Positions 5,250 through 34,621 of a stretch of 64,000 nucleotides of DNA are shown piece by piece. This DNA is from Halomarina oriensis. GTDB taxonomy: Archaea > Halobacteriota > Halobacteria > Halobacteriales > Haloarculaceae. The stretch covers positions 1 to 64,000 of the forward strand of contig NZ_WSZK01000008.1 of assembly GCF_009791395.1 (NCBI RefSeq). Direction: 5' to 3'. The position numbers were made by a program, and so were the translations under genes. How positions within the stretch are numbered: the first letter of the stretch is position 1; each line of letters opens with the position of its first letter. The notes below the pieces were generated by a model. It was not told where the DNA came from. It worked only from the letters and a program-made list of their open reading frames with translations, and made no database searches.

Positions 5250-5336
5250 ATGGACGGCTCCGACCGGTTCTTCCTGTTCGTCACGGTGCTCATCTTCGTC
5301 GTCATCGTCGCCGGAATCGCGTTCAGCCTCCTCTGA
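5250..5336 (+). CDS. Single-span membrane microprotein
   Basis: A 28-codon reading frame that encodes a charged N-terminus (MDGSDR) followed by one uninterrupted hydrophobic helix (residues 7-28) and ends there. All codons but a few end in G or C, as in real genes here. TTAAG at 5221-5225, about 25 bases before the ATG, is a reasonable TATA-like element for a leaderless message. Small single-helix proteins of this kind are widespread in haloarchaea, but I cannot assign a function. It could be a chance frame, although the clean TM profile argues for a gene. Confidence 0.55.
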   Translation: MDGSDRFFLFVTVLIFVVIVAGIAFSLL

Positions 5337-6535: not shown

Positions 6536-6832
6536 ACGATGGTGGTTGGTGACGAGGGCCAAAGAGCTTCGCCCGCCCTCACGCTCCGGTCGCTCCTCGC
6601 CTCGCTCCGGCCACTGTGGAGGGCGCTCGACGAGACGCCGGCAGGGGACGCCCACGGCCACCAGCACGTGAGGAGGCGGAGACCACCGAGGAGGCGGTTC
6701 GGAGACGTGACAGAACCAGCCAGTCCACGCTCACGAACGGACGCACGGACGTGCCGTCCGTCAGTCCGGCGCACGCACGCCACCACTCCGCAACCCTTAT
6801 CTTTCCGTTGCCACCAGTATCTGGTACACCCC

Positions 6833-22464: not shown

Positions 22465-23456
22465 AGCGCCCCCCGCCGGTACTGCGAGTAGATGTACGGT
22501 GCGACGATGAACAGCGCCATCACGAACAGCACGACGGCGATGGCGGAGCCGTACGCCCAGTTGCTGTTGGCGTACGCCTCACGCACCATCCGGGTGGCGA
22601 GGATATCCGCCGAGGGACCGGGCTGGTAGCCGCTGTACATCGAGAACAGGAAGTCGAACGCCTTCAGCGCGAACACCGTGAGCACGACGAGCGCACTCAC
22701 CGTCGCGGTCCGCAACTGCGGCAGGACGACCCGGCGGTACAGCCGGTAGGTGCTCGCACCGTCGACACGGGCGGCCTCGAAGTGGCTCGTCGGAATCGCC
22801 CGCAGCCCCGCGAGGTAGACGATCATCGCGTAGCCGCTGAACTGCCAGACGAGCGCGAACGCGACCGCCGCCAGTTTCAGGTCGGGGTTCTGGACGATCT
22901 CGACCGGCCCGAACCCGAGCGACGTGATGACGATGTTGACGAGTCCGGTCTCGACGTTGTACATGTAGAGCCAGAACTTCGCCGTGACGACGAACGAGAG
23001 GCTCATCGGGAGCAGGTAGACGGTCCGGAAGGTGTTCTCGAAGCGGATCTCCTGGTCGACGAGAATCGCCAGCAGGAGACCGAGGACGAGACAGAACACC
23101 GTGAACCCGACCATCAGCGCGACGGTGTTGCCCAGCGAGTTCCAGATGGGTTCGACCGAGAGGTCCGACCAACTGGGGGTCCCGCCCGTGAACGCGACGA
23201 CGTAGTTCTCGAAGTCGAGGTTGGTGTAGTCCGGCTCCCCGAGTCCGGTGAAGTCCGTCAGCGACAGGACGATGTTCCAGAGGATGGCCCCGTAGACGAA
23301 CAGGGCGACGAGCAGGAACGGCGGCAGCCAGAACGGTGCCGACCGGACCGACTCGCGCTGGAGGAACGGCGTCCGCTCGGCGGCCGTCCCGCCGTCCGTC
23401 CGAACGTCGTCGCTGTCGGACCAGCGGCGTCTGATGATGGATAGTGGGTTTCGCAT
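22461..23456 (-). CDS. CUT1 sugar ABC permease (MalF type)
   Basis: 331 aa with six helices. Seen: first helix SAPFWLPPFLLVALFVYGAILWNIVLS, periplasmic segment, and the EAA loop EAARVDGASTYRLYRRVVLPQLR (about 236-258). The N-terminal cytoplasmic 40 aa are charged. It lies 21 bases downstream of the substrate-binding gene and overlaps the MalG-type gene. Substrate is inferred to be a monosaccharide or oligosaccharide from context with GfcR. Confidence 0.91.
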   Translation of the reverse strand: MRNPLSIIRRRWSDSDDVRTDGGTAAERTPFLQRESVRSAPFWLPPFLLVALFVYGAILWNIVLSLTDFTGLGEPDYTNLDFENYVVAFTGGTPSWSDLSVEPIWNSLGNTVALMVGFTVFCLVLGLLLAILVDQEIRFENTFRTVYLLPMSLSFVVTAKFWLYMYNVETGLVNIVITSLGFGPVEIVQNPDLKLAAVAFALVWQFSGYAMIVYLAGLRAIPTSHFEAARVDGASTYRLYRRVVLPQLRTATVSALVVLTVFALKAFDFLFSMYSGYQPGPSADILATRMVREAYANSNWAYGSAIAVVLFVMALFIVAPYIYSQYRRGAL

Positions 23457-23477
23457 GCGAGACGGAGTGTGACGGCG

Positions 23478-24804
23478 TTACTGGAACGCGCCGACGAGTT
23501 GTTCGGCGGTCGTCGCCGCGTCGTAGTTCTCCAGGAAGCCGCTGAACGCCGACCCGATGTTGGTCTGAATCGGCGGTGCGACGGCCAGCCCGTGCTGGAT
23601 GGACGGTGGCTGGTTGTCCGCGTTGTTGAAGTCGTCGTACTGGTCCTGCTGGAACTGGCTGAGTTCGGAGACGTCGGCGTCCCCACGGGGGGGGAATCGA
23701 CCCCTTCTCGGCGTTGAACAGGACCTGTCCCTCCGTGGAGCCACAGTAGCTGAGGAACGTCTTCGTCGCCTCGGGCGACGGGTTGTTGGCGAAGTACGGG
23801 AACGAGTCCATGTTCAGCTGGTAGCTCCCCTCCGTGCCGGGGTAGGTGACCTGGTTCCACTGCTCGCCGTAGTTGAAGCTCTCGCTGCTGCGGTAGGCAC
23901 CGGCCGCCCAGTCACCCTGGTGGATGAACGCGGCGTCGCCCTCCATCACCATCGTGTTCGCCTCGGTGAAGCTGATCGAAGAGGAGTCGCCGGGGTAGTA
24001 CTGTTCGAGCTCGACGACGTTCTCCAGAGCGGACTGAACCTGCTGCTGGTCGCCCTCGCCGTTGGTGAACGCCTCGTAGCCGTCGATGCCGGCCTGCCCG
24101 AGGAGGATCGTCTCCCAGAGCTGGACCGTCGACCACGCGCCGCTGGTCTGCTGGGCGAACGGGACGGCGTCCGTCTCGCTGGCGATGGTCTCACACGCGC
24201 TGACCACGTCGGCCGGCGAGGAGAGCGACGTCGGATCGACGCCCGCCTGCTCGACGACCTCGACGTTGTAGAACAGGTTGTTGATGCGGTGGATGTTGAG
24301 CGGCACCGTCACGAACTCGCCGTTCAACTGCGCCTGGGTCCGTGGCCCCTCCAGATAGTTGTTCTTCAGGTCGTCGGTCCAGACGTCGCCGTCGATGCTC
24401 TCGTAGGCCTCCCCGAACTTCTCCAGGGTCTTGCCCGGCCACGTCTGGAACGTGCTGGGTGGCTCGTTGCTCTGGAGACGGTTCGAGACGACCTGGTCGA
24501 GGTTGCCACGGGCGGCCCCGTTGACCGGCTCCTCGGCGAACTCGACGTCCGGGTGAGCCTCCTGGAAGCCGCCGATGAGCGCCTCGATGGCGGCGCTCCC
24601 GTCACCGGACGACCAGGCGTGGAGCAGTTCGAGCTGTTCCATGCTCCCACCGCCGCCCGAGCCGTCGCCACTGCCGTTCCCGCTTCCGTTCCCGTCGCCG
24701 CCGTCTCCCCCGAGACAGCCGGCGAGACCGGCGATACCTGCAGCGCCCGCACCCGCCAACACGCGCCGTCGTGAGACTCCGTCGTCTGTGTGCTGCTTTG
24801 CCAT
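23478..24804 (-). pseudogene. CUT1 sugar-binding lipoprotein with a frameshift in an 8-G run
   Basis: Substrate-binding protein of the operon. Frame 1 encodes a Tat lipoprotein signal (SRRRVLAG..., lipobox LAGC with Cys30), a Gly/Ser/Asp linker, and an extracellular solute-binding fold to about residue 372 (...AEKGSIPP). Coding then continues in another frame from RGDADVSELSQFQ to the stop at 23478. The break coincides with eight consecutive G on the plus strand (23687-23694). With seven, a single 441-aa protein of normal length results. All the rest looks intact, so this is either a sequencing indel, a recent mutation, or a slippage switch. The operon order and 21-base spacing to the permease support the original function. 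Confidence 0.88.
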
Positions 24805-24967: not shown

Positions 24968-25591
24968 TCAGACCCGGATGACCTGAATCAGCGAGTAGAC
25001 CGGGACGCCTTCGACCTCGTCGACACCCTGCTTGTCGACGAGGACGGCACAGGCCACGGGATTCCCGCCGCGTTCCTCGACGGCGGAGATGGTCTCGGTG
25101 AGCGTCGTCCCGCTGGTGACGGTGTCGTCGACGACGATGCAGTCCCTCCCCTCGACGGGCGCGAAGTTCCGCGAGAAACTGCCGCCGAGGTCCTCGATGT
25201 CGCCCTCGTCCCACTGGTGCTTTCGCGGGGTGTAGGTTGCGAGGTCCGATTCGAGGTCTCGCGAGACGACGGTCGCCAGCGGAACGCCCGCCTTCTCGAC
25301 ACCGATGGTGACCTCCGGGACGCCGCTCCGGTCCTGGACCATGTCCGAGATGGCCCTGCCGACGAACTCCAGTCGGTCGCTGTCGGTGCCGACGGCCGAC
25401 CAGTCGACGTGTACGTCGGTCGGTTCCCGCGGTACGTCGTCGGCCGTACCGCCGGTTGAGGTGTCGCCACGCTCGACGAGCCATCGGGCCGTCTCACGGG
25501 AGACGTTCAACTCGTCGGCGATCTCGCCCTTCGAGAGTCCTTTCTGTGCCAGTGCCGTCGCGTTCTCGATGAGGTCGTCTACGTTCTTCAT
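24968..25591 (-). CDS. gfcR: Sugar-catabolism regulator GfcR (PRTase-like)
   Basis: 207-aa transcription regulator combining an N-terminal helix-turn-helix (about 10-40, KGLSKGEIADELNVSRETARWLVE) with an orotate phosphoribosyltransferase-like domain (70-207) carrying the PRPP loop CIVVDDTVTSGTT (151-163). In Haloferax volcanii GfcR activates genes of the semiphosphorylative Entner-Doudoroff pathway and glycolysis. Here it sits directly upstream of a sugar ABC operon and about 6 kb from a gluconate dehydratase-like gene, which fits. Its ATG overlaps the stop of a small upstream frame (25588-25821) by 4 bases. Often misannotated as a PyrE-like enzyme. Confidence 0.92.
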   Translation of the reverse strand: MKNVDDLIENATALAQKGLSKGEIADELNVSRETARWLVERGDTSTGGTADDVPREPTDVHVDWSAVGTDSDRLEFVGRAISDMVQDRSGVPEVTIGVEKAGVPLATVVSRDLESDLATYTPRKHQWDEGDIEDLGGSFSRNFAPVEGRDCIVVDDTVTSGTTLTETISAVEERGGNPVACAVLVDKQGVDEVEGVPVYSLIQVIRV

Positions 25592-25916: not shown

Positions 25917-27041
25917 CTACTCGTCGTCGCTCGCTGGCCGGTCGTTCCGGCCGGGGGTGTCGTCGCCGTGGGCCGACGTCGCGTCCGCGGGCGGGTCGTA
26001 GACGTACAGCAGGTCCGGCGTGACGACGTAGTAACTGCCGTCGTCGGGTGACTCGACGACGCCGGTCTTCGAGTCGATGGCGAAGTCCACCAGGTCCGCG
26101 AGCGAGGCGGCGTGCGCACGCTCGCGTGCTCGAACCGACTCCGGCAGGCGAATCGTCGTGATCCACTCGTCGAACTCCGCTCGGTCACCCTGGTGGCGAA
26201 GTCGTTCACGTTCGTCGTCGCTCAGCCGTACCCCCTCCCGCCTCGTCCCGACGAGTACCGCCCCCAACAGGAGCAGTCCGCCCATCGTGAGCATCGGCCC
26301 ACCGAGGGTGAGTAGCGGACTGCGAGCGGTCCGGACCACGGTCGTCTCCATCCGGTCGTGGCGTTCGACGCCGTTCGAGACGTTGCCGACGCGGTACGCC
26401 GTCCCGAGTTCGACGGGCAGGTCGTAGGTCCGCGTTCGGTCGACCTGCTGGCCGTCGACCGTCCCGGTCCGACTCACGACGGTCCGGACGAGCACCTCCG
26501 ACTGTCCGACGCTTCCCCCGAGTCGGTCTTCGATCATCTCGGTCCGGTTCGACACCGCGCTCACGTTCACCGCGAACGGGACCGTGACTCGCTCGCCCGC
26601 GTCCACGCGTTCGACGGCCGGGTCGCTCAGTTGCGTGGTCCGCTGCCAGAGCACCGTCTCGTTCCCGCTCCGGGACTCCTCGACCGCTCTGACGACGAGC
26701 ATCGACTCGACGCTCACCGTCATGTTCCCCTCCGACCCCGTGTAGCCGTAGCTGAACGTTCCGTTGAGCCACGGCGCGATACTGCTGAAGTACGTCGAGC
26801 GGTTGTGGAGCGTCGTCCCCGTCTCGTAGACCGGGTTCGGTTCGACGACGACCGCCGAGTGACTGTAGCCGCCTCGCTCCTCCCACGAGGAGGCGACGAC
26901 CTCCCGAGTGTCGGTCGCCGGTGCTGCGTACCCCGTGTAGGTCAACCAGCCACCAAGCACGACGACGACCACGAGTATCCCGGCGACGAGCGCCGCGTTG
27001 TCCATCACCGCCTGTCTGAGACGAAGTGTCCAGTCCGACAT
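25917..27041 (-). CDS. DUF5305 membrane protein
   Basis: 374 aa. Seen: N-terminal membrane helix (about 17-37), a large extracellular domain (38-250) with several N-x-T/S sequons, a second helix (about 253-276), and a cytoplasmic domain of about 95 aa with acidic tail. This matches the DUF5305 family. Such genes typically lie beside signal peptidase and DUF1102 genes in haloarchaea, as here (45 bases downstream of the peptidase gene, same strand). A scaffold, chaperone or assembly role for the exported DUF1102 proteins is inference. Confidence 0.82.
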   Translation of the reverse strand: MSDWTLRLRQAVMDNAALVAGILVVVVVLGGWLTYTGYAAPATDTREVVASSWEERGGYSHSAVVVEPNPVYETGTTLHNRSTYFSSIAPWLNGTFSYGYTGSEGNMTVSVESMLVVRAVEESRSGNETVLWQRTTQLSDPAVERVDAGERVTVPFAVNVSAVSNRTEMIEDRLGGSVGQSEVLVRTVVSRTGTVDGQQVDRTRTYDLPVELGTAYRVGNVSNGVERHDRMETTVVRTARSPLLTLGGPMLTMGGLLLLGAVLVGTRREGVRLSDDERERLRHQGDRAEFDEWITTIRLPESVRARERAHAASLADLVDFAIDSKTGVVESPDDGSYYVVTPDLLYVYDPPADATSAHGDDTPGRNDRPASDDE

Positions 27042-27086
27042 CTGAGGTAGCGTTCGAGAATGTGAGATTAGTTACCGACCGATTTA

Positions 27087-28250
27087 TCAACCGACCAACC
27101 GCTTGAACCGCCGTGTCACCGTGCCGAGAAGTCCCCCCGTGTTTCGCGTTCGCTTCCGGATGCGTCCGCCGGGCGCGAACGGGAGCGTCAGCGCGAGGAA
27201 CCCACCGGCGAGCAGCGCGTCGATGGCGACGATGGGTGCCCACGGGTGGACCCGGTAGAGCGAGTCGACGACACCCCCCGGCAGGACGGCGAGGTAGCGG
27301 TGCTCGACGAGATACCGCCGGTAGTAGCCGGTCTCCGGTGGGGCGAAGAGGGTGACCGCCGTGCCGACGGTCTGACCGCCGCCGACGTAGAGTCGCTGCT
27401 GACTCACCGCGATACCCTCGCTGGCGGGTTCGACGTACACCTGCTGTGGGACGAGGCCGCCGTTGAACACCTCGTAGCTGTGGGTCTTCGACTCGCCCAT
27501 CGGGACGACGTTGGGCCGTTCGGACTCGAACTCCGCGCTGACGACGCCGTACTGCTGTGTGCCACTCGGTGCGACCATCGCCGCCGTCGCGCCGACGACG
27601 AGGAGCGTGGCGAACCCGACGAGCACGAGACGCATCGAGACGCCGGTGTCGCGCTTGGTGATACGCTTCGCGCGCTCGCGGGTCGCTCCCTCGCGGTACC
27701 AGTCGAACGCGTAGAACAGGAGCGCGCCCGCGAAGAACAGGTACGCGAGCCCCTGTGTTCCCAGTACGGACCCGGTACCGAGGAGGCTGGCGAGCGTCCC
27801 CTGGACCGTCCGGAGGACACTCTGGATGCCCTCGACTGCGGTCCCGAGGTGGGGGATGACGACGACGTTGCCGTTTATCTGCAGGGCTTTGGCGACGATC
27901 TGGGCGTCCTTGACCGGGGGTTCGCGGTCCGATTGGTCGGTGAACGGGTTCGCGTCCCCCTGCGTGATGTAGCCGCGGTCGGTCTCACCGACGATGCGGT
28001 GGGTGGTTATCTCCGCGCCGTTGATCTCCTCTGGTTTGAACACGACCACATCCCCCTCTCTCACACTCCCTGCCACGCTACTAGGAACCGATACGAATCC
28101 GTCACCCGGACTCATCGTCGGTTTCATGCTGCCGGTCTCTACATACCCCAGGAAAAACGGCTGTCCGAGGAGTGAGCCAGTTACGATCAAGACTGTCGCT
28201 AGTATCGTCGCAACGATCGCTAAACGGGAGAGGATCGATCGCACGTTCAT
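27087..28250 (-). CDS. Type I signal peptidase, archaeal/SipW-like
   Basis: 387-aa S26B family signal peptidase. Seen: N-terminal helix (8-30), catalytic Ser41 in VETGSMKPTMSPGD, His84 in ITTHRIV, and acidic residues Asp99 and Asp105 in ITQGDANPFTD, i.e. the ER/archaeal Ser-His-Asp type. Unusually long: beyond the catalytic domain (to about 140) there are more helices (about 165-185, 210-228, 340-358) and an extracellular beta-rich region (230-335). This is not the housekeeping size (about 200-300 aa). The first 77 or so codons are distinctly lower in GC than the rest. It is flanked by DUF1102 and DUF5305 genes, so a dedicated peptidase for those exported proteins is likely. Confidence 0.88.
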   Translation of the reverse strand: MNVRSILSRLAIVATILATVLIVTGSLLGQPFFLGYVETGSMKPTMSPGDGFVSVPSSVAGSVREGDVVVFKPEEINGAEITTHRIVGETDRGYITQGDANPFTDQSDREPPVKDAQIVAKALQINGNVVVIPHLGTAVEGIQSVLRTVQGTLASLLGTGSVLGTQGLAYLFFAGALLFYAFDWYREGATRERAKRITKRDTGVSMRLVLVGFATLLVVGATAAMVAPSGTQQYGVVSAEFESERPNVVPMGESKTHSYEVFNGGLVPQQVYVEPASEGIAVSQQRLYVGGGQTVGTAVTLFAPPETGYYRRYLVEHRYLAVLPGGVVDSLYRVHPWAPIVAIDALLAGGFLALTLPFAPGGRIRKRTRNTGGLLGTVTRRFKRLVG

Positions 28251-28326
28251 TGGCGGCGTCTGTTTCTCATTCGGATGGTTCCAGTCCCGAAGGAACGGTT
28301 TCGGGCCGTGTGCCCGGAGTCACGTA

Positions 28327-28833
28327 TCAGCCCTGCGATTGGTCAGCTTTGATATTGATGGTCCCTGGTAGATCACCACCCATGTTGAATATTATCACGT
28401 TCACGCTGAGACTACTACCTGGGCCCACGGCGGTAGCGTTTCCGGATCCTTCGATCGAGTTCGAGAACCCCGAGCCCGAGTACCACTCGACGTTGTTCGT
28501 GCCGTCCGACTCGTCATCCTCAATCCACACACCCACCGAGTTCTCCCCGGCGTTCGTGATCTCGAAGACGCCAGTGAACGAGTAATCAGAGTTGACGTTG
28601 ATACCACCGCCGTCGGCCGTCGAGTCCCCGTTGAACGTCAGCTTGAGTTGACCGCTCGAATCGTCTGCGTACGCACTCGTTGCGTCCAAAGCGAGAAACG
28701 CGTTCGTGTCGTCGACAACCGCGATACCGGCGTTACGCTCGATGTTTGCGAAGTTGAACGCACCGGTCCCCATTGCAGCTGCCCCCGCGGCAGCGAGCGA
28801 TCCTGCACCAAGTAGGAATTTTCGTCGTTGCAT
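28327..28833 (-). CDS. DUF1102 secreted protein A
   Basis: 168 aa. N-terminus MQRRKFLLGAGSLAAAG with hydrophobic core to GTGAF, then a mature beta-rich domain beginning IERNAGIAVVDDTNAFLAL. The twin Arg and the short signal resemble both Tat signals and SipW-type signals. GC content is only about 52-60 % in most 60-base lines, far below neighbours, suggesting different origin. The start and 33-base leader are shared with the second DUF1102 gene at 29049-29618. Likely a surface or filament subunit; function inferred only. Confidence 0.85.
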   Translation of the reverse strand: MQRRKFLLGAGSLAAAGAAAMGTGAFNFANIERNAGIAVVDDTNAFLALDATSAYADDSSGQLKLTFNGDSTADGGGINVNSDYSFTGVFEITNAGENSVGVWIEDDESDGTNNVEWYSGSGFSNSIEGSGNATAVGPGSSLSVNVIIFNMGGDLPGTINIKADQSQG

Positions 28834-28868
28834 CGGTCTTCACTGCGCGCCGTCGTGGCACGCGTCAC
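28834..28868 (-). promoter_or_regulatory. Leader shared by the two DUF1102 genes (copy A)
   Basis: Minus-strand untranslated leader directly before the ATG of DUF1102 A. It matches the leader of DUF1102 B (29619-29654) at about 30 of 35 positions with one gap, including TGAAGACC next to the start and CGTGCCACG further out. Further upstream, TATTCAGAATA (28890-28900) is a small palindrome at promoter distance. Conservation outside the coding sequence suggests shared control or RNA structure. Confidence 0.5.
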
Positions 28869-29048
28869 CACCACCTGTCGACCATATGCTATTCAGAATA
28901 CACAGCGACGCAACGCCAAGAGGGACTCCGGGGATACGCAAGAGACGGCCCCCGCCGACTCAATAGACACTCTCCACACGCTGTACACCGAGACTTACCG
29001 CGGTACGAACGGCGAGACCAGAACGGTCGGAGGCCTCGTTTCGATCGG

Positions 29049-29618
29049 TCAGGCGTTCGAGTCCGTCCCGTCGGCGGTGATGGTGAGCGTGTCGGGCTTG
29101 GTGAACCCGTTCGGGTTCCCGTCGTTCGGCCCGGTAGCGAAGAGGAAGACGAAGTTGATCTCCACGTACTCACCCGGTCCGAGTTCGACCGACCCACCGT
29201 CGTCGAGTCGGGTCGGACTCCCGCCACCGGAGGGCTGGGCGAAGATCTGGAGCGTGTCCTCGTAGCCGCCGTTCCAGTCGGGCGAGTCGTCGATGGTGAG
29301 CGTCACCGGCGCGCCGGTCGTGTTCTGGACCCGGAACACGTCGTCGAACCGCGAGTCCATGTTCGGGTTCAGGCGGTCGAACGTCACCGCGAGTTGGCTG
29401 ACGCCCTGACCGCCCTCCCAGCCGCCGCTCACGGGTTCTTCACTCGCGTACGGGCTGGTAGGAATCAGGCTCAGGTACGCGCCCGAGTCGCTCTCGAGGT
29501 CGACGGTCATCGACCGGTCGCCGTTGATGTACGCGCCCTCGAACGCACCGGTCCCCATTGCAGCCGTCCCCGCGGCGGCGAGCGATCCAACACCGAGTAG
29601 GAATCTGCGTCGTTCCAT
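29049..29618 (-). CDS. DUF1102 secreted protein B
   Basis: 189 aa, paralog of the 28327-28833 product. Signal MERRRFLLGVGSLAAAG...GTGAF is nearly identical; the mature part begins INGDRSMTVDLESDSGAYLSL and contains the beta-strand pattern LAVTFDRLNPN, FRVQNTTGAPVTLTI and VELGPGEYVEINFVF. Unlike copy A it has normal high GC. Encoded upstream of, and in the same direction as, the signal peptidase. Likely exported and cleaved after the GAF segment by that peptidase. Confidence 0.86.
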   Translation of the reverse strand: MERRRFLLGVGSLAAAGTAAMGTGAFEGAYINGDRSMTVDLESDSGAYLSLIPTSPYASEEPVSGGWEGGQGVSQLAVTFDRLNPNMDSRFDDVFRVQNTTGAPVTLTIDDSPDWNGGYEDTLQIFAQPSGGGSPTRLDDGGSVELGPGEYVEINFVFLFATGPNDGNPNGFTKPDTLTITADGTDSNA

Positions 29619-29654
29619 TGGTCTTCAGGGCGCACCGTCCGTGGCACGCCTCGA
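29619..29654 (-). promoter_or_regulatory. Leader shared by the two DUF1102 genes (copy B)
   Basis: Counterpart of the leader at 28834-28868: minus-strand bases before the ATG read ...GCGTGCCACGGACGGTGCGCCCTGAAGACCA in pieces that align with copy A. Most haloarchaeal genes are leaderless, so a conserved leader of more than 30 bases is notable. Confidence 0.5.
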
Positions 29655-29978
29655 TTCCGACGTGTTTCCGGTCCCGAGTAGGAACATACAGCGGATAGAG
29701 TGACAAACACTGTCGGGACTCTCCAATACGACGTACAGAACGCCCAATACACGTCGAGCGGGGCCTCAACAGCGACTACCTGTTGGCTCAATAGACTGCC
29801 AACGCGAACTGTAAGACCGACTTTACTGGTGGTCGTCACGTAGGACCTGTCCTAACACCGACCTGTCGAGGCACAAATTGTACACGGATACTCACTGATG
29901 CTGGACTCTGTTGGCTCACGACCGTATAACTAACTCCGAATACTCAACCGATTAGCACGACTCGGAGGGAGCTGAGAC
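29655..29978. other. AT-richer divergent promoter region
   Basis: 324 bases without a gene between DUF1102 B (minus) and the DUF7344 gene (plus). GC falls to about 48 % in 29881-29940. TATAACTAACT (about 29924-29934) is a candidate TATA for the plus-strand gene, whose ATG (29979) is preceded by GGAGGGA at 29964-29970. The minus-strand promoter is probably around 29690-29710 (GCGGATAGAGTGACAAACA). No open frame here has coding character. Confidence 0.55.
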
Positions 29979-30561
29979 ATGGCAAACGCGGAGGTCAGTG
30001 CGGCGGGGGGGGACAGTGCGAGAGTTGTCGGAGGACGACGTGTTCGACGTTCTCTCGAACCAGCGACGGCGGTACGCCTATCACTATCTGAAACACGCCG
30101 AGGCGGGCGAACTACCGCTCCGTGAGTTGGTCGACAACGTCGCGGCCTGGGAGTGTGGAAAGGAGGTCAACGCGCTCACCTCCACCGAGCGCAACCGCGT
30201 CTCGACGGCGCTCCACCAGTTCCACCTGCCGAAGATGGACGACTGTGGGTTCGTCGAGTACGACGACCGACGTGGTATCGTCTCGCTCTCCGAACCGGCG
30301 ACGGACCTGGAGGTGTATCTGGACGTGGTCCCCGGGCGGGACATCCCGTGGAGCAGGTACTACCTCGGTCTCGCGGGGGTCAACACGCTCGTCCTCGTCG
30401 GCTGTCTCGTCGGCGTCCCGCCGATGAGTCTGTTGCCCGTCCTCTCGTGGCTGACGTTCGTCGTCGCCTCGTTCCTGCTCTCGGCTGCTGTCCACACGTT
30501 CTACAACCGACGACTTCGTATCGGGTCGACGACCACACCGCCCCCCGAGTTGGACCGATGA
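29979..30561 (+). pseudogene. DUF7344 winged-helix membrane regulator, frame broken in an 8-G run
   Basis: Product when repaired: an N-terminal DUF7344 domain (winged-helix type; ELSEDDVFDVLSNQRRRYAYHYL, then HLPKMDDCGFVEYDD) followed by two membrane helices near the C-terminus. The ATG at 29979 has a good Shine-Dalgarno (GGAGGGA, 8 bases upstream), but eight G at 30005-30012 put it out of frame with the domain. With seven G it reads through to the stop at 30561. As written, the domain is only reachable from GTG at 29998 (187 aa). Probably the local regulator of the DUF1102/signal peptidase locus; it overlaps the next gene by 4 bases. Confidence 0.75.
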
Positions 30562-31208
30562 CCGTCCGCGGCTATCACGTCCTGCTCGTGCTCGCAGCGG
30601 CCTGTCTCGTGGTGGGGTCTGGTGCGTTCTCGTCGGTGTCGGCAGACCGGGGGATGACCGTCGCCATCGTCGACGACGAGAGCGCGTACCTCGGTGTCGA
30701 CGTCCCGGAGGAGGTGTTCGTCACGGGCGGCGAGAAGGTCGACGGGAACGGCGACTCCGTCGGTGAGGGGTCGGGCAACGGCGGTGGACAGGGTGACGGA
30801 GAGGTGGAGAGCGGAGACGAGAACGGCAAGGAGAACGGGAACGGTGGGCAGGCAGGAGACGGACGGGGGAACGGCCAGAACGGTGCCACCGACGAGTCGG
30901 GGCTTCGAGAGACCGACGTGACGCTCATCGAGGTACAGAACCGGTTCGGGTTCGACCTCGACGTGACGGTCACCGTCGACCCGACTGTGGACGGTGACGG
31001 ACGGTTCCCGCAGGTCGGTGAGAGCGAACGAGCGGCCCCCTTCGAGGTGGCGTTCTCGCTCCCGTCGGGCGGCAGCGAGGCGGTCACCGTCCCGGCGACC
31101 TGCCCCGGAAACGGTGAGCAGTCCCGGACGGTCGAACTCGTCGTCGTTGCGACGGGGGAGTCGGGCAGCGTCGAGTTGACCCGTGAAGTCACCGTCACCT
31201 GCTCGTAG
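30558..31208 (+). CDS. Secreted DUF1102-like protein with Gly/Asn/Asp-rich insert
   Basis: 216 aa. Hydrophobic signal (residues 7-24) ending GSGAF, then DRGMTVAIVDDESAYLGV, which aligns with the start of both DUF1102 proteins (G-T/S-GAF ... R-x-M/I-x-V ... AYL). A low-complexity Gly/Asn/Glu/Asp segment (about 61-112) separates it from a C-terminal beta domain (115-216) with two Cys. Lacks the twin Arg. Starts inside the stop codon of the DUF7344 gene (ATGA). I infer a third, variant subunit of the same surface system. Confidence 0.78.
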   Translation: MTVRGYHVLLVLAAACLVVGSGAFSSVSADRGMTVAIVDDESAYLGVDVPEEVFVTGGEKVDGNGDSVGEGSGNGGGQGDGEVESGDENGKENGNGGQAGDGRGNGQNGATDESGLRETDVTLIEVQNRFGFDLDVTVTVDPTVDGDGRFPQVGESERAAPFEVAFSLPSGGSEAVTVPATCPGNGEQSRTVELVVVATGESGSVELTREVTVTCS

Positions 31209-31247: not shown

Positions 31248-32483
31248 ATGAGTCGAGACTACGGGTCGCTGCACGACCCGAACGCGGAGTACACGATGCG
31301 AGACCTCTCCTCGGAGTCGATGGGTCTCTCGAACGACCGCGGGCCGCGCGACGTGGAGATCACCGACGTCCAGACGACGATGGTCGACGGCAACTTCCCG
31401 TGGACGCTCGTCCGCGTCTACACCGACGCGGGCGTCACGGGGACCGGCGAGGCGTACTGGGGCGCTGGCGTCCCCGAACTCGTCGAGCGGATGAAACCGT
31501 TCGTCGTCGGGGAGAACCCCCTCGACATCGACCGCCTGTTCGAGCACCTCGTCCAGAAGATGTCCGGCGAGGGCTCTATCGGTGGTGTCACCGTCACCGC
31601 CATCTCCGGTATCGAAGTCGCGCTCCACGACCTCGCGGGGAAACTCCTCGACGTGCCCGCCTACCAGTTGCTCGGCGGGAAGTACCGCGACGAGATGCGG
31701 GTCTACTGTGACTGTCACACTGCCGACGAGGCCGACCCCGAGGCGTGTGCCGACGAGGCCGAACGCGTCGTCGAGGAGCTGGGCTACGACGCGCTCAAGT
31801 TCGACCTCGACGTCCCGTCGGGCCACGAGAAGGACCGTGCGAACCGGCACCTCCGGAACCCCGAAATCGAGCACAAGGCACGTATCGTGGAGGCGGTCAC
31901 CGAACGCGTCGGTGACCGTGCGGACGTCGCGTTCGACTGCCACTGGACGTTCTCCGGTGGCTCGGCGAAGCGCCTCGCCCGCGAACTGGAGGAGTTCGAC
32001 GTCTGGTGGCTCGAAGACCCGGTTCCCCCCGAGAACCACGACGTCCAGCGCGAGGTCACCCAGTCGACGGTGACGCCCATCGCCGTCGGCGAGAACGTCT
32101 ACCGGAAACACGGTCAGCGTCGGCTGCTCGAAGAGCAGGCGTGTGACATCGTCGCCCCCGACCTCCCGAAGGTCGGCGGGATGCGCGAGACGCGGAAGAT
32201 AGCCGACGTGGCCGACACCTACTACGTCCCCGTGGCGATGCACAACGTCGCCTCGCCGGTAGCGACGATGGCCGCTGCCCACGTCGGGACGGCCATCCCG
32301 AACGCGCTCGCCGTCGAGTACCACTCCTACCAGCTGGGCTGGTGGGCGGACCTCGTCGAGGAGACGGTCATCGAGGACGGCTACATCGAGGTTCCCGAGA
32401 AGCCCGGTCTCGGTGTCACGCTCGACATGGACACCGTCGCCGAGCACATGGTCGAGGGTGAGAGTCTGTTCGACGAGGCGTGA
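31248..32483 (+). CDS. gad: Enolase-superfamily sugar-acid dehydratase, probably gluconate dehydratase
   Basis: 411-aa mandelate racemase/muconate lactonising enzyme family member. Seen: N-terminal capping domain, Lys-containing strand ALKFDLDVPSG, metal ligands in AFDCHW, WLEDPVPPEN and IAVGENV, and C-terminal MHNVASPVA with the catalytic His. Length and N-terminus resemble the haloarchaeal gluconate dehydratase of the semiphosphorylative Entner-Doudoroff pathway; galactonate or other sugar-acid substrates are possible. Close to gfcR, whose Haloferax homolog controls this pathway. A hairpin follows the stop. Confidence 0.8.
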   Translation: MSRDYGSLHDPNAEYTMRDLSSESMGLSNDRGPRDVEITDVQTTMVDGNFPWTLVRVYTDAGVTGTGEAYWGAGVPELVERMKPFVVGENPLDIDRLFEHLVQKMSGEGSIGGVTVTAISGIEVALHDLAGKLLDVPAYQLLGGKYRDEMRVYCDCHTADEADPEACADEAERVVEELGYDALKFDLDVPSGHEKDRANRHLRNPEIEHKARIVEAVTERVGDRADVAFDCHWTFSGGSAKRLARELEEFDVWWLEDPVPPENHDVQREVTQSTVTPIAVGENVYRKHGQRRLLEEQACDIVAPDLPKVGGMRETRKIADVADTYYVPVAMHNVASPVATMAAAHVGTAIPNALAVEYHSYQLGWWADLVEETVIEDGYIEVPEKPGLGVTLDMDTVAEHMVEGESLFDEA

Positions 32484-32951: not shown

Positions 32952-33398
32952 ATGAGTTCACAGCGACTCACGGAGACCCCGTCCGAGACCGCTACCACGC
33001 CTACCGACTACGAGAGCGTCGACCGCGACGATGCCTACCACCTGCTCTCGAACGCGCGGCGACGCGCCGTCATGCGCTACCTCCTCGACGTCGAGGAGAC
33101 GACCGAACTCGGCACGCTCGCCGAGCACGTAGCGGCCATCGAGAACGACTGTGACCCCGACGCGCTGTCGTCGGACGACCGCAAACGCGTCTACATCTCG
33201 CTCTACCAGGGACACATGCCGAAACTCGACCAACACGGTCTGGTCGACTACGACCAGGCGCGGGGGGTGGTGTCCCCGAAACCGCTCGTCGAAGCGTTCG
33301 CGCCGTTCCTCGACGAGAGACCGCTCTCCCGAGAGGAACCGGCGATTCAGGAGCCGAACCGTTCGTCGGGATTCATCTCCTCGCTGTTCGGTCGATAG
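32952..33398 (+). CDS. DUF7344 winged-helix regulator
   Basis: 148-aa soluble protein with one DUF7344 domain (about 22-110): RDDAYHLLSNARRRAVMRYLLDVEETTELGTLAEHVA, then RKRVYISLYQGHMPKLDQHGLVDYDQARGVV. The same family occurs at 29979 and 48796. No membrane helix. A short Ser/Pro tail ends the protein. Target unknown; it is upstream of, and in the same direction as, the TrmB-HAD pair. Confidence 0.85.
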   Translation: MSSQRLTETPSETATTPTDYESVDRDDAYHLLSNARRRAVMRYLLDVEETTELGTLAEHVAAIENDCDPDALSSDDRKRVYISLYQGHMPKLDQHGLVDYDQARGVVSPKPLVEAFAPFLDERPLSREEPAIQEPNRSSGFISSLFGR

Positions 33399-33568: not shown

Positions 33569-34621
33569 ATGAGTTCGACCGACCTTCGCCGGACGCTGGA
33601 GCGGATGGGTGACCGCTTCGACTTCGGCGAGTACGAAATCGAGGCGTATCTGGCCGTCCTCGACCACGGGGACCTGACGGCCAGTGAGATCGCCGACCAC
33701 ACCGACATCCCGCAGCCACGAGTCTACGACACCGTCCGGAAACTCAGCGACCGCGGGATGGTCGAAGTGCGCGAGTCCCGGCCGATGCGGGTGGTCGCAC
33801 TGGACCCCGACTCGGTGTTCCCCCCGGTACAGGAGTCACTCGACGAACTCGTGACTGACCTCGCCGCCCGCTACACCGCGCCGGCCCGCGAGACCGAGGC
33901 GGTGTCGCTCGTCAAGTCCCGACCGAGCATCGTTCGGTACCTCGAATCCGCCCTCGAGAGTGCGGAGTACGAGTTGGCGTGTTCGCTCACGCCGGACCTG
34001 CTCGACCGGTTCGAGACGGACCTCCGAGCGGCCGTCGACGGCGGCGTCTCCGTCGAACTGCTCGTCACGCCCGCGAGCGACGCTCCGTCGCCCGAGGAGT
34101 TCGACTACGAGGCCGTCGCCACCGAGGTCCGGGCCAGACGCGGCATCACGACGCCCGTGATGGCCGTCGCGGACGGCGAGCGCTCGGTGTACGCCACGCA
34201 GGACGCGCTGACCGACGGCAGCGAGCGCTACGGCGTCATCTTCAACCGCTCGGCGCTGGGCTTTCTCGTCGGTGGCTTCTTCAACACGGTCCTCTGGACG
34301 ACCGGCGAGTCGCTCGTCGCCGGCGGTGCTGGCGGGTTCCCCCGGCGGTACGCGTCGATTCGACGGTGTCTGAAGGATATCGCCGACGCCGACGGGTCGT
34401 TCTCCGTCACCGTCGTCGGCCGTGACGTGGTCGACGGAACCCGGCGGCGCGTCACGGGGTCCGTCGCCGAGTTGAGTCTCGGGTCCTCGGACGAGGTGGC
34501 GACGCTCACGCTCGACACCGACGAGGGGCCGGTGAGCGTCGGTGGCCGGATGGCGGCCTACGAGGACATCGAGGCCCACGAGATTCACGTCGAACGACCG
34601 GCGGACGTGGAGGGAGCGTGA
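33569..34621 (+). CDS. trmB: TrmB-family sugar-sensing transcription regulator
   Basis: 350 aa. An N-terminal winged helix (about 14-80; [45 protein letters not shown] split over two helices) is joined to the TrmB effector-binding domain (105-345). In Halobacterium, TrmB senses sugar and controls gluconeogenesis versus sugar use. Its stop overlaps the GTG of the HAD gene (GTGA), so both are co-expressed. A TATA-like TAAACCCTTT lies 26-35 bases before the ATG. Confidence 0.9.

Follow-up and report, generated by a model that had tools for sequence, protein, structure and literature searches.

A divergent six-gene locus of Halomarina oriensis very probably encodes a donor-strand filament system of the Tafi (Tat-fimbria) type. 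It lies in a 64,000-nucleotide (nt) stretch (assembly GCF_009791395.1, contig NZ_WSZK01000008.1, positions 1-64,000), the whole of which was analyzed and is here called the window. Tafi are thin haloarchaeal filaments with components exported by the twin-arginine translocation (Tat) route, as stated where PMC12687288 cites Galeva et al. (2025, iScience 28:111793), and Taf families are named in NCBIfam (TafA/TafC/TafE; NF052520-22). A preliminary description of this DNA had proposed a possible haloarchaeal counterpart of TasA-like fiber loci. The kind of fiber was borne out by the likeness of its subunits to a solved Tafi pilin (Protein Data Bank, PDB, entry 9p0a), whereas the idea of a new, unnamed TasA counterpart was given up, since this kind of system had already been named and its pilin solved. 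Our reading would place six genes of vague function (DUF1102, DUF5305, DUF7344, a double-domain peptidase, and TafC-like) in one fiber system described in 2025.

All six open reading frames (ORFs) were confirmed at their previously given coordinates and form two divergent arms:

29049..29618, minus strand: probable second Tafi-type fimbrial subunit, TafE-like, 189 amino acids (aa); Tat signal RRRFL; putative cut GTGA/F; NF052522, 48.4 bits; included in alignment A4
28327..28833, minus strand: probable Tafi-type fimbrial subunit, DUF1102/TafE-like, 168 aa; Tat signal RRKFL; putative cut GTGA/F
27087..28250, minus strand: type I signal peptidase, Sec11/SipW-like, 387 aa; TIGR02228, 60 bits, above cut-off; SEC11A, E = 6e-8
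25917..27041, minus strand: DUF5305 membrane protein, 374 aa; PF17231, E = 2.2e-47
29998..30561, plus strand: DUF7344 winged-helix protein with two C-terminal membrane helices; PF24035, E = 1.3e-29
30558..31208, plus strand: TafC-like secreted protein, 216 aa; NF052521 (TafC), 50.8 bits

Pfam recognized DUF5305, Peptidase_S26, and DUF7344; of the two small proteins, one had a DUF1102 match. These matches agree with the earlier calls of a DUF5305 membrane protein and of a winged-helix protein with two membrane helices; hydropathy of the latter agrees with the helix prediction. The ATG of the TafC-like gene overlaps the DUF7344 stop codon (ATGA).

Subunit homology, fold, and putative cleavage site

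Two Tat/SipW-like proteins had been assigned to DUF1102 in the preliminary description. This holds for 28327-28833, which passed the Pfam DUF1102 threshold, and not for 29049-29618, which fell below it; both matched NCBIfam TafE (E ~1e-12 each), below its curated cut-off. A profile of 48 subunit sequences, nearly all from genomes other than that of the window, was searched against the whole PDB, and the sole pilin matched was 9p0a (E = 1.3e-33), an entry entitled "Structure of Natrinema sp. J7-2 Tafi pilus". As single sequences, 28327-28833 matched this pilin at E = 5.6e-10 and 29049-29618 at E = 0.003. The AlphaFold (AF2) model of 28327-28833, computed from the family alignment, had a mean predicted local distance difference test score (pLDDT) of 76, and most of its beta-sandwich exceeded 80. 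Its best structural match was likewise 9p0a (Z = 10.1, 3.0 A, 122 residues). The TasA-like Pyrobaculum bundling pilus 7ueg, third in the ranking and the second archaeal filament in it, followed with Z = 7.9 over 113 residues at 10% identity, a value slightly below the level that the tool rates safe, and the Sulfolobus thread 7pnb held rank 3 in Foldseek. TasA itself was not among the 50 fold matches listed for the model. The fold likeness to the TasA/AbpA class that had been suspected for this secreted protein was found, in 9p0a and 7ueg.

All three secreted window proteins share a GTGA/GSGA-F motif. Since the structure library holds 188 of the 215 residues of 9p0a and the aligned range ends at 215, the filament subunit begins at the Phe of GTGA/FSS, provided that there is no internal gap. 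In TasA, the donor strand comprises residues 28-38, the start of its fiber form (PMC9674648). We infer with good reason, from the sequences, that the window proteins would be cleaved before the Phe of this motif. An RR-like pair was present in 76 of the 79 relatives with the cut motif.

The TafC-like protein and export routes

The product of 30558-31208 is built of a signal of the general secretory (Sec) kind ending in GSGA/F, a Gly/Asn/Asp-rich linker (about residues 55-115), and a C-terminal beta domain. It matched NCBIfam TafC (E = 1e-13), below the curated cut-off, and the profile of its family (A7) matched 9p0a at E = 2.5e-8. Its kinship with the DUF1102-like pair, first noticed at the N-terminus, reaches into the mature domains, for which comparison of the TafC-like and DUF1102/TafE-like profiles gave an hhalign probability of 97.7 (E = 1.4e-12). 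It had also been described as a low-complexity variant subunit; taken as a copy of the major subunit, this reading was rejected, since the protein is TafC-like and its counterparts lie next to DUF7344, both in relatives and where TafA is present. A Pfam TrAA12 match (E = 4e-6, below cut-off) fell on the low-complexity stretch and was judged compositional.

Both DUF1102-like proteins carry RRxFL Tat signals with a weakly hydrophobic core (h-region 1.65). The TafC-like protein has no RR pair, its h-region (2.55) is Sec-like, and it is probably exported by Sec; if so, one peptidase would process substrates of both routes. Since its Halorubrum relatives have KRR and weak cores, the family does not seem to have kept to one export route.

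Distribution of the gene set

Synteny was compared in 55 loci, i.e., 53 fetched loci, the window, and a second locus of the same genome; the search was centered on DUF5305, and the sample is therefore biased to complete loci. The peptidase gene lay beside DUF5305 in 53 of them, with DUF5305 directly downstream in nearly all relatives, and at least one subunit gene was found in 50. DUF7344 was present in 38 loci; it was divergent to the peptidase in 37, had two or more helices in 33, and was followed by a subunit gene in 33. Because the same gene set recurs across haloarchaea, the composition of the locus is no chance grouping. For an unbiased test we turned to 59 genomes of the class, where the co-occurrence of DUF1102-like subunit and peptidase anticipated in the preliminary description was found: 45 genomes had both, 13 had neither, and the single discordant one had the subunit alone (Fisher p = 3e-12, a value that overstates independence, since the genomes are related). 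Thus, the tafi system is carried by most haloarchaeal genomes sampled (45/59). In these genomes, DUF5305 lay no more than 6 kb from 64 of 70 peptidases, and 67 of the 70 had at least one partner.

Not every subunit gene has a peptidase nearby. Of 94 listed places, 24 were more than 10 kb from a peptidase, and the H. oriensis genome itself has a TafE-like orphan, paired divergently with a two-helix DUF7344 gene and with no peptidase nearby (contig C7, L008:7385-8973; L, C, and G numbers are our labels for loci, contigs, and genomes). Such orphans, and the absence of a large anchor-like subunit from the window, would fit a system without filaments, in which Tafi-fold proteins of the surface or matrix are processed and then presented one by one or in a loose coat, and in which the peptidase serves secretion only. 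We consider this improbable, as the window keeps the whole set of a pilus locus (two subunits, TafC-like protein, DUF7344, peptidase, and DUF5305) and the solved relative, 9p0a, is a filament.

The orphan pair on C7 is flanked by subtilase-like and SRP54-like genes. The same genome also has, on contig C45, a compact taf-like locus (L007:9782-12995) of DUF5305, a TafC-like gene, a 327-aa peptidase, and a subunit without an RR pair. It adjoins integrase-like and glycosyltransferase-like genes, and loci of its type also occur in Haloferax massiliensis (L059), Halomarina rubra (L060), and Halomicroarcula rubra (L061).

Placement of the window within tafi

Loci that pass the TafA cut-off contain DUF5305, a 392-aa subunit, TafE, TafA, DUF7344, TafC, and the peptidase (L074), and the window matches their set of DUF7344-TafC, TafE, peptidase, and DUF5305. 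From gene order, our guess is that DUF7344 and the peptidase are TafB and TafD. In the peptidase tree, the window falls in a 48-leaf group (support 0.91), separate from the TafA-bearing loci and also from the compact loci, which form a third group and include L007. Since three genomes (G055, G006, and G013) carry both the window-type and the TafA-type lineage, these are parallel systems.

Several observations weigh against the assignment to a Tafi filament. One subunit was modeled, as a monomer, and most of its N-terminal 46 residues had pLDDT near or below 60; an unstructured N-terminus is compatible with a donor strand and does not demonstrate one, as strand exchange is not visible in a monomer. 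No protein of the genome reaches the TafE or TafA cut-off, and the TafC-like protein of the window stays below that of TafC (48 and 48 bits vs. 155 each for the TafE-like proteins, 51 vs. 410 for the TafC-like one). In addition, the window is without the large anchor- or adhesin-like subunit of many relatives, a protein of 400-540 aa with DUF1102, PGF-pre-PGF, and CARDB and a C-terminal helix. However, the pilin of 9p0a also falls below the cut-offs (TafE 76/155, TafA 58/190), and that of TafA was passed in 5 of the 59 genomes. The cut-offs therefore mark a subgroup, and failing them does not put the window outside tafi.

The missing genes could also point to a degenerate or silent locus that has kept its parts and makes no fibers, its anchor-like subunit and canonical TafA being gone; there is no TafA-level match in the genome and no subunit of 400-540 aa in the window. 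Considering that the six ORFs are intact, that the active-site residues of the peptidase are kept, and that the mature Natrinema pilin has its nearest counterparts among the subunits of this very lineage, we regard such decay as very improbable. Moreover, eight neighbors in the peptidase tree (L009, L011, L020, L031, L047, L053, L056, and L075) also have no separate anchor-like gene of 400-540 aa in the stretch read; since the compact form is common to these neighbors, it is no private loss in the window.

The peptidase, DUF5305, and a proposed mode of fiber assembly

A long type I signal peptidase with a Ser41/His84/Asp99 active site had been recognized at the outset, and the family match and the invariance of the three residues in 39 relatives agree with this. 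The enzyme is of the archaeal/endoplasmic reticulum (ER) type, SEC11A being its nearest solved sequence. It had been called SipW-like, and as an equivalog of SipW proper (NF046067) it was rejected, with 32.4 bits vs. a cut-off of 190. Its AF2 model (pLDDT 74) has two extracytoplasmic parts. The first, the S26 domain, matched E. coli signal peptidase (Z = 11.0) and SipA (Z = 10.9). SipA is a signal-peptidase homologue required for pilus polymerization in Streptococcus. The second is a C-terminal beta-sandwich (residues ~222-340) between membrane helices, and its matches were major sperm protein (MSP) and PapD-like immunoglobulin (Ig) domains. This part aligns across every lineage, and neither the methanogen-like contigs (L052, L055) nor the compact loci of four genes are exceptions. 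That the peptidase, as modeled, has a second, Ig/PapD-MSP-like extracytoplasmic domain, in its relatives too, is a new observation of this analysis. Besides the two taf-type peptidases, the genome has one signal-peptidase-like ORF, of 264 aa. A search for taf-type peptidases in viruses gave weak matches to the catalytic core only.

DUF5305 consists of an N-terminal membrane helix, an extracytoplasmic part, a second helix, and a cytoplasmic C-terminus. Together, the peptidase and DUF5305 would be the best candidates for the assembly machinery of archaeal donor-strand fibers. We propose that the DUF1102-like subunits leave the cell by Tat and the TafC-like protein probably by Sec, and that the dedicated membrane peptidase would cut all three after GTGA/GSGA, before Phe, freeing an N-terminal strand. 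This strand would complete the beta-sandwich of the next subunit, and the resulting head-to-tail chain would be a thin fiber, in which 29049-29618 and the TafC-like product may serve as adapter or end piece. The Ig/MSP-like domain and DUF5305 could form a membrane platform that holds and adds cut subunits, and the membrane-bound DUF7344 protein may control expression. For the platform, our confidence lies somewhere between doubtful and evenly balanced.

The chief alternative to that one step is that neither the extra domain nor DUF5305 plays any part in assembly and that removal of the signal peptide suffices for the fiber to form by itself, as has been considered for the Sulfolobus thread. 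TasA can complement itself, as can some of the predicted thread monomers (PMC9674648, PMC9715654). The structural matches of the C-terminal domain (Z 7-8.2, the highest with the VAP-A MSP domain; Foldseek E = 6e-4) also speak for caution, since Z ~8 allows a merely common arrangement, and hhalign found no sequence link between this domain, DUF5305, and the subunits (probability 3% or less), so that sequence kinship among them was dropped. Conversely, no lineage has lost either the extra domain or DUF5305, and even the methanogen-like contigs and four-gene loci have both, a pattern that a plain signal peptidase would hardly account for; the other peptidase-like ORF of the genome has 264 aa. Spontaneous assembly is a real possibility, somewhat short of an even chance.

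A bolder form of the platform model, which we think rather unlikely, would make the peptidase a cleavage-coupled chaperone that cuts the subunit, immediately covers its open groove with the PapD/MSP-like domain, and hands it over to the growing fiber with DUF5305 as partner. If true, archaeal donor-strand filaments would thereby have their missing assembly machine, a peptidase-chaperone fusion unlike chaperone-usher and TasA systems. The regular pair of DUF5305 and a peptidase with an Ig-like domain offers a testable handle on how archaeal donor-strand fibers assemble without chaperone and usher.

The DUF7344 gene, leader hairpins, and neighboring genes

DUF7344 is also present in loci with curated TafA and is probably the local regulator. 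It is not specific to tafi: the genome has 33 matches, and others with membrane helices adjoin polysaccharide genes and a photolyase. The start of the window gene is uncertain, as the nearest upstream ATG (29979) is out of frame and a run of eight G lies between it and the gene; either GTG 29998 is the start or the G run contains an indel (sequencing error or slippage).

Many relatives have a strong G+C-rich hairpin in front of their first Tat-type subunit gene, mostly at a distance of 12-26 nt from the ATG and followed by GAGGT (L019:3984-4083, L017:3729-3828, L010:4943-5042, L050:5919-6018, and others). Seventeen Halorubrum-type leaders share a 23-pair consensus in which two pairs show two-sided (compensatory) changes; in several other genera, a hairpin of different sequence occupies the same place. 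The hairpin may be a structured mRNA leader or an operator; an Rfam search of the window region gave no family match for it. Its counterparts in the window, read from the sequence, are short inverted repeats whose z-score is not significant:

29629..29650, minus strand: inverted repeat with 8-bp arms around a 6-nt loop; lies 10 nt ahead of the start codon (ATG) of 29049-29618
28845..28863, minus strand: inverted repeat with 7-bp arms around a 5-nt loop; lies 11 nt ahead of the start codon (ATG) of 28327-28833

Two genera have a tRNA T-arm-like sequence (GGCGGTTCRATTCCGCC) immediately ahead of the second subunit gene (L050, ~6730-6760; L051, ~5290-5320); ARAGORN found no whole tRNA at these sites. 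Most Halorubrum loci encode, between a 510-aa subunit and the peptidase, a multi-pass membrane protein of ~300 aa with HxxGN and GxSG (L019:7731-8636 and counterparts; also L074:951-1514). It is rhomboid-like by eye, has no Pfam match, and is absent from the window.

Sugar genes surround the taf locus. On the minus strand, 24968-25591 encodes a phosphoribosyltransferase-type protein with an N-terminal helix-turn-helix, which resembles GfcR, and 22579-24804, a gene for a sugar-binding-type ATP-binding cassette (ABC) transporter protein, has an apparent frame change at ~23690, its natural continuation being ORF 23478-23744; this appears to be an assembly error or a broken gene. On the plus strand follow an enolase-superfamily dehydratase (31248-32483), an additional DUF7344 protein without membrane helices (32952-33398), and a TrmB-type regulator (33569-34621).

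Comparison with known filament systems

With the TasA/TapA/SipW system of Bacillus subtilis, the window shares a general plan, i.e., a fiber subunit, an accessory subunit, a dedicated ER-type (Ser-His) signal peptidase, and a cut, putative in the window, before Phe. It differs in that its subunits have no Pfam match to TasA/camelysin and its peptidase stays far below the SipW cut-off (32 vs. 190 bits). To our knowledge, the Bacillus system has no counterpart of the extra Ig-like domain of the peptidase or of DUF5305. The AbpA bundling pili of Pyrobaculum calidifontis (7ueg) assemble by donor strand. Their beta-sandwich class is shared by the modeled window subunit (Z = 7.9), although identity is 10% and the profile search of the PDB did not pick up AbpA. 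The Sulfolobus acidocaldarius thread (Saci_0406, 7pnb) is a donor-strand filament with a subunit cut by a class I signal peptidase; it is Sec-exported, and no chaperone or usher was identified near its gene (PMC9715654). A peptidase of the class I type is common to both, whereas the DUF1102-like subunits of the window carry Tat signals.

From the TafA-bearing tafi loci, the window differs in its separate peptidase lineage, in having no protein at the TafA, TafC, or TafE cut-off, in the order of its genes (the subunits come before peptidase-DUF5305, and DUF7344-TafC forms the divergent arm), in having no anchor-like subunit of 392-540 aa, and in the Sec-like signal of its TafC-like protein. What it has in common with tafi, known here from genes and a model, is homologous subunits of the same fold, Tat signals, the GTGA/F motif, a TafC-like gene coupled to DUF7344, the peptidase, and DUF5305.

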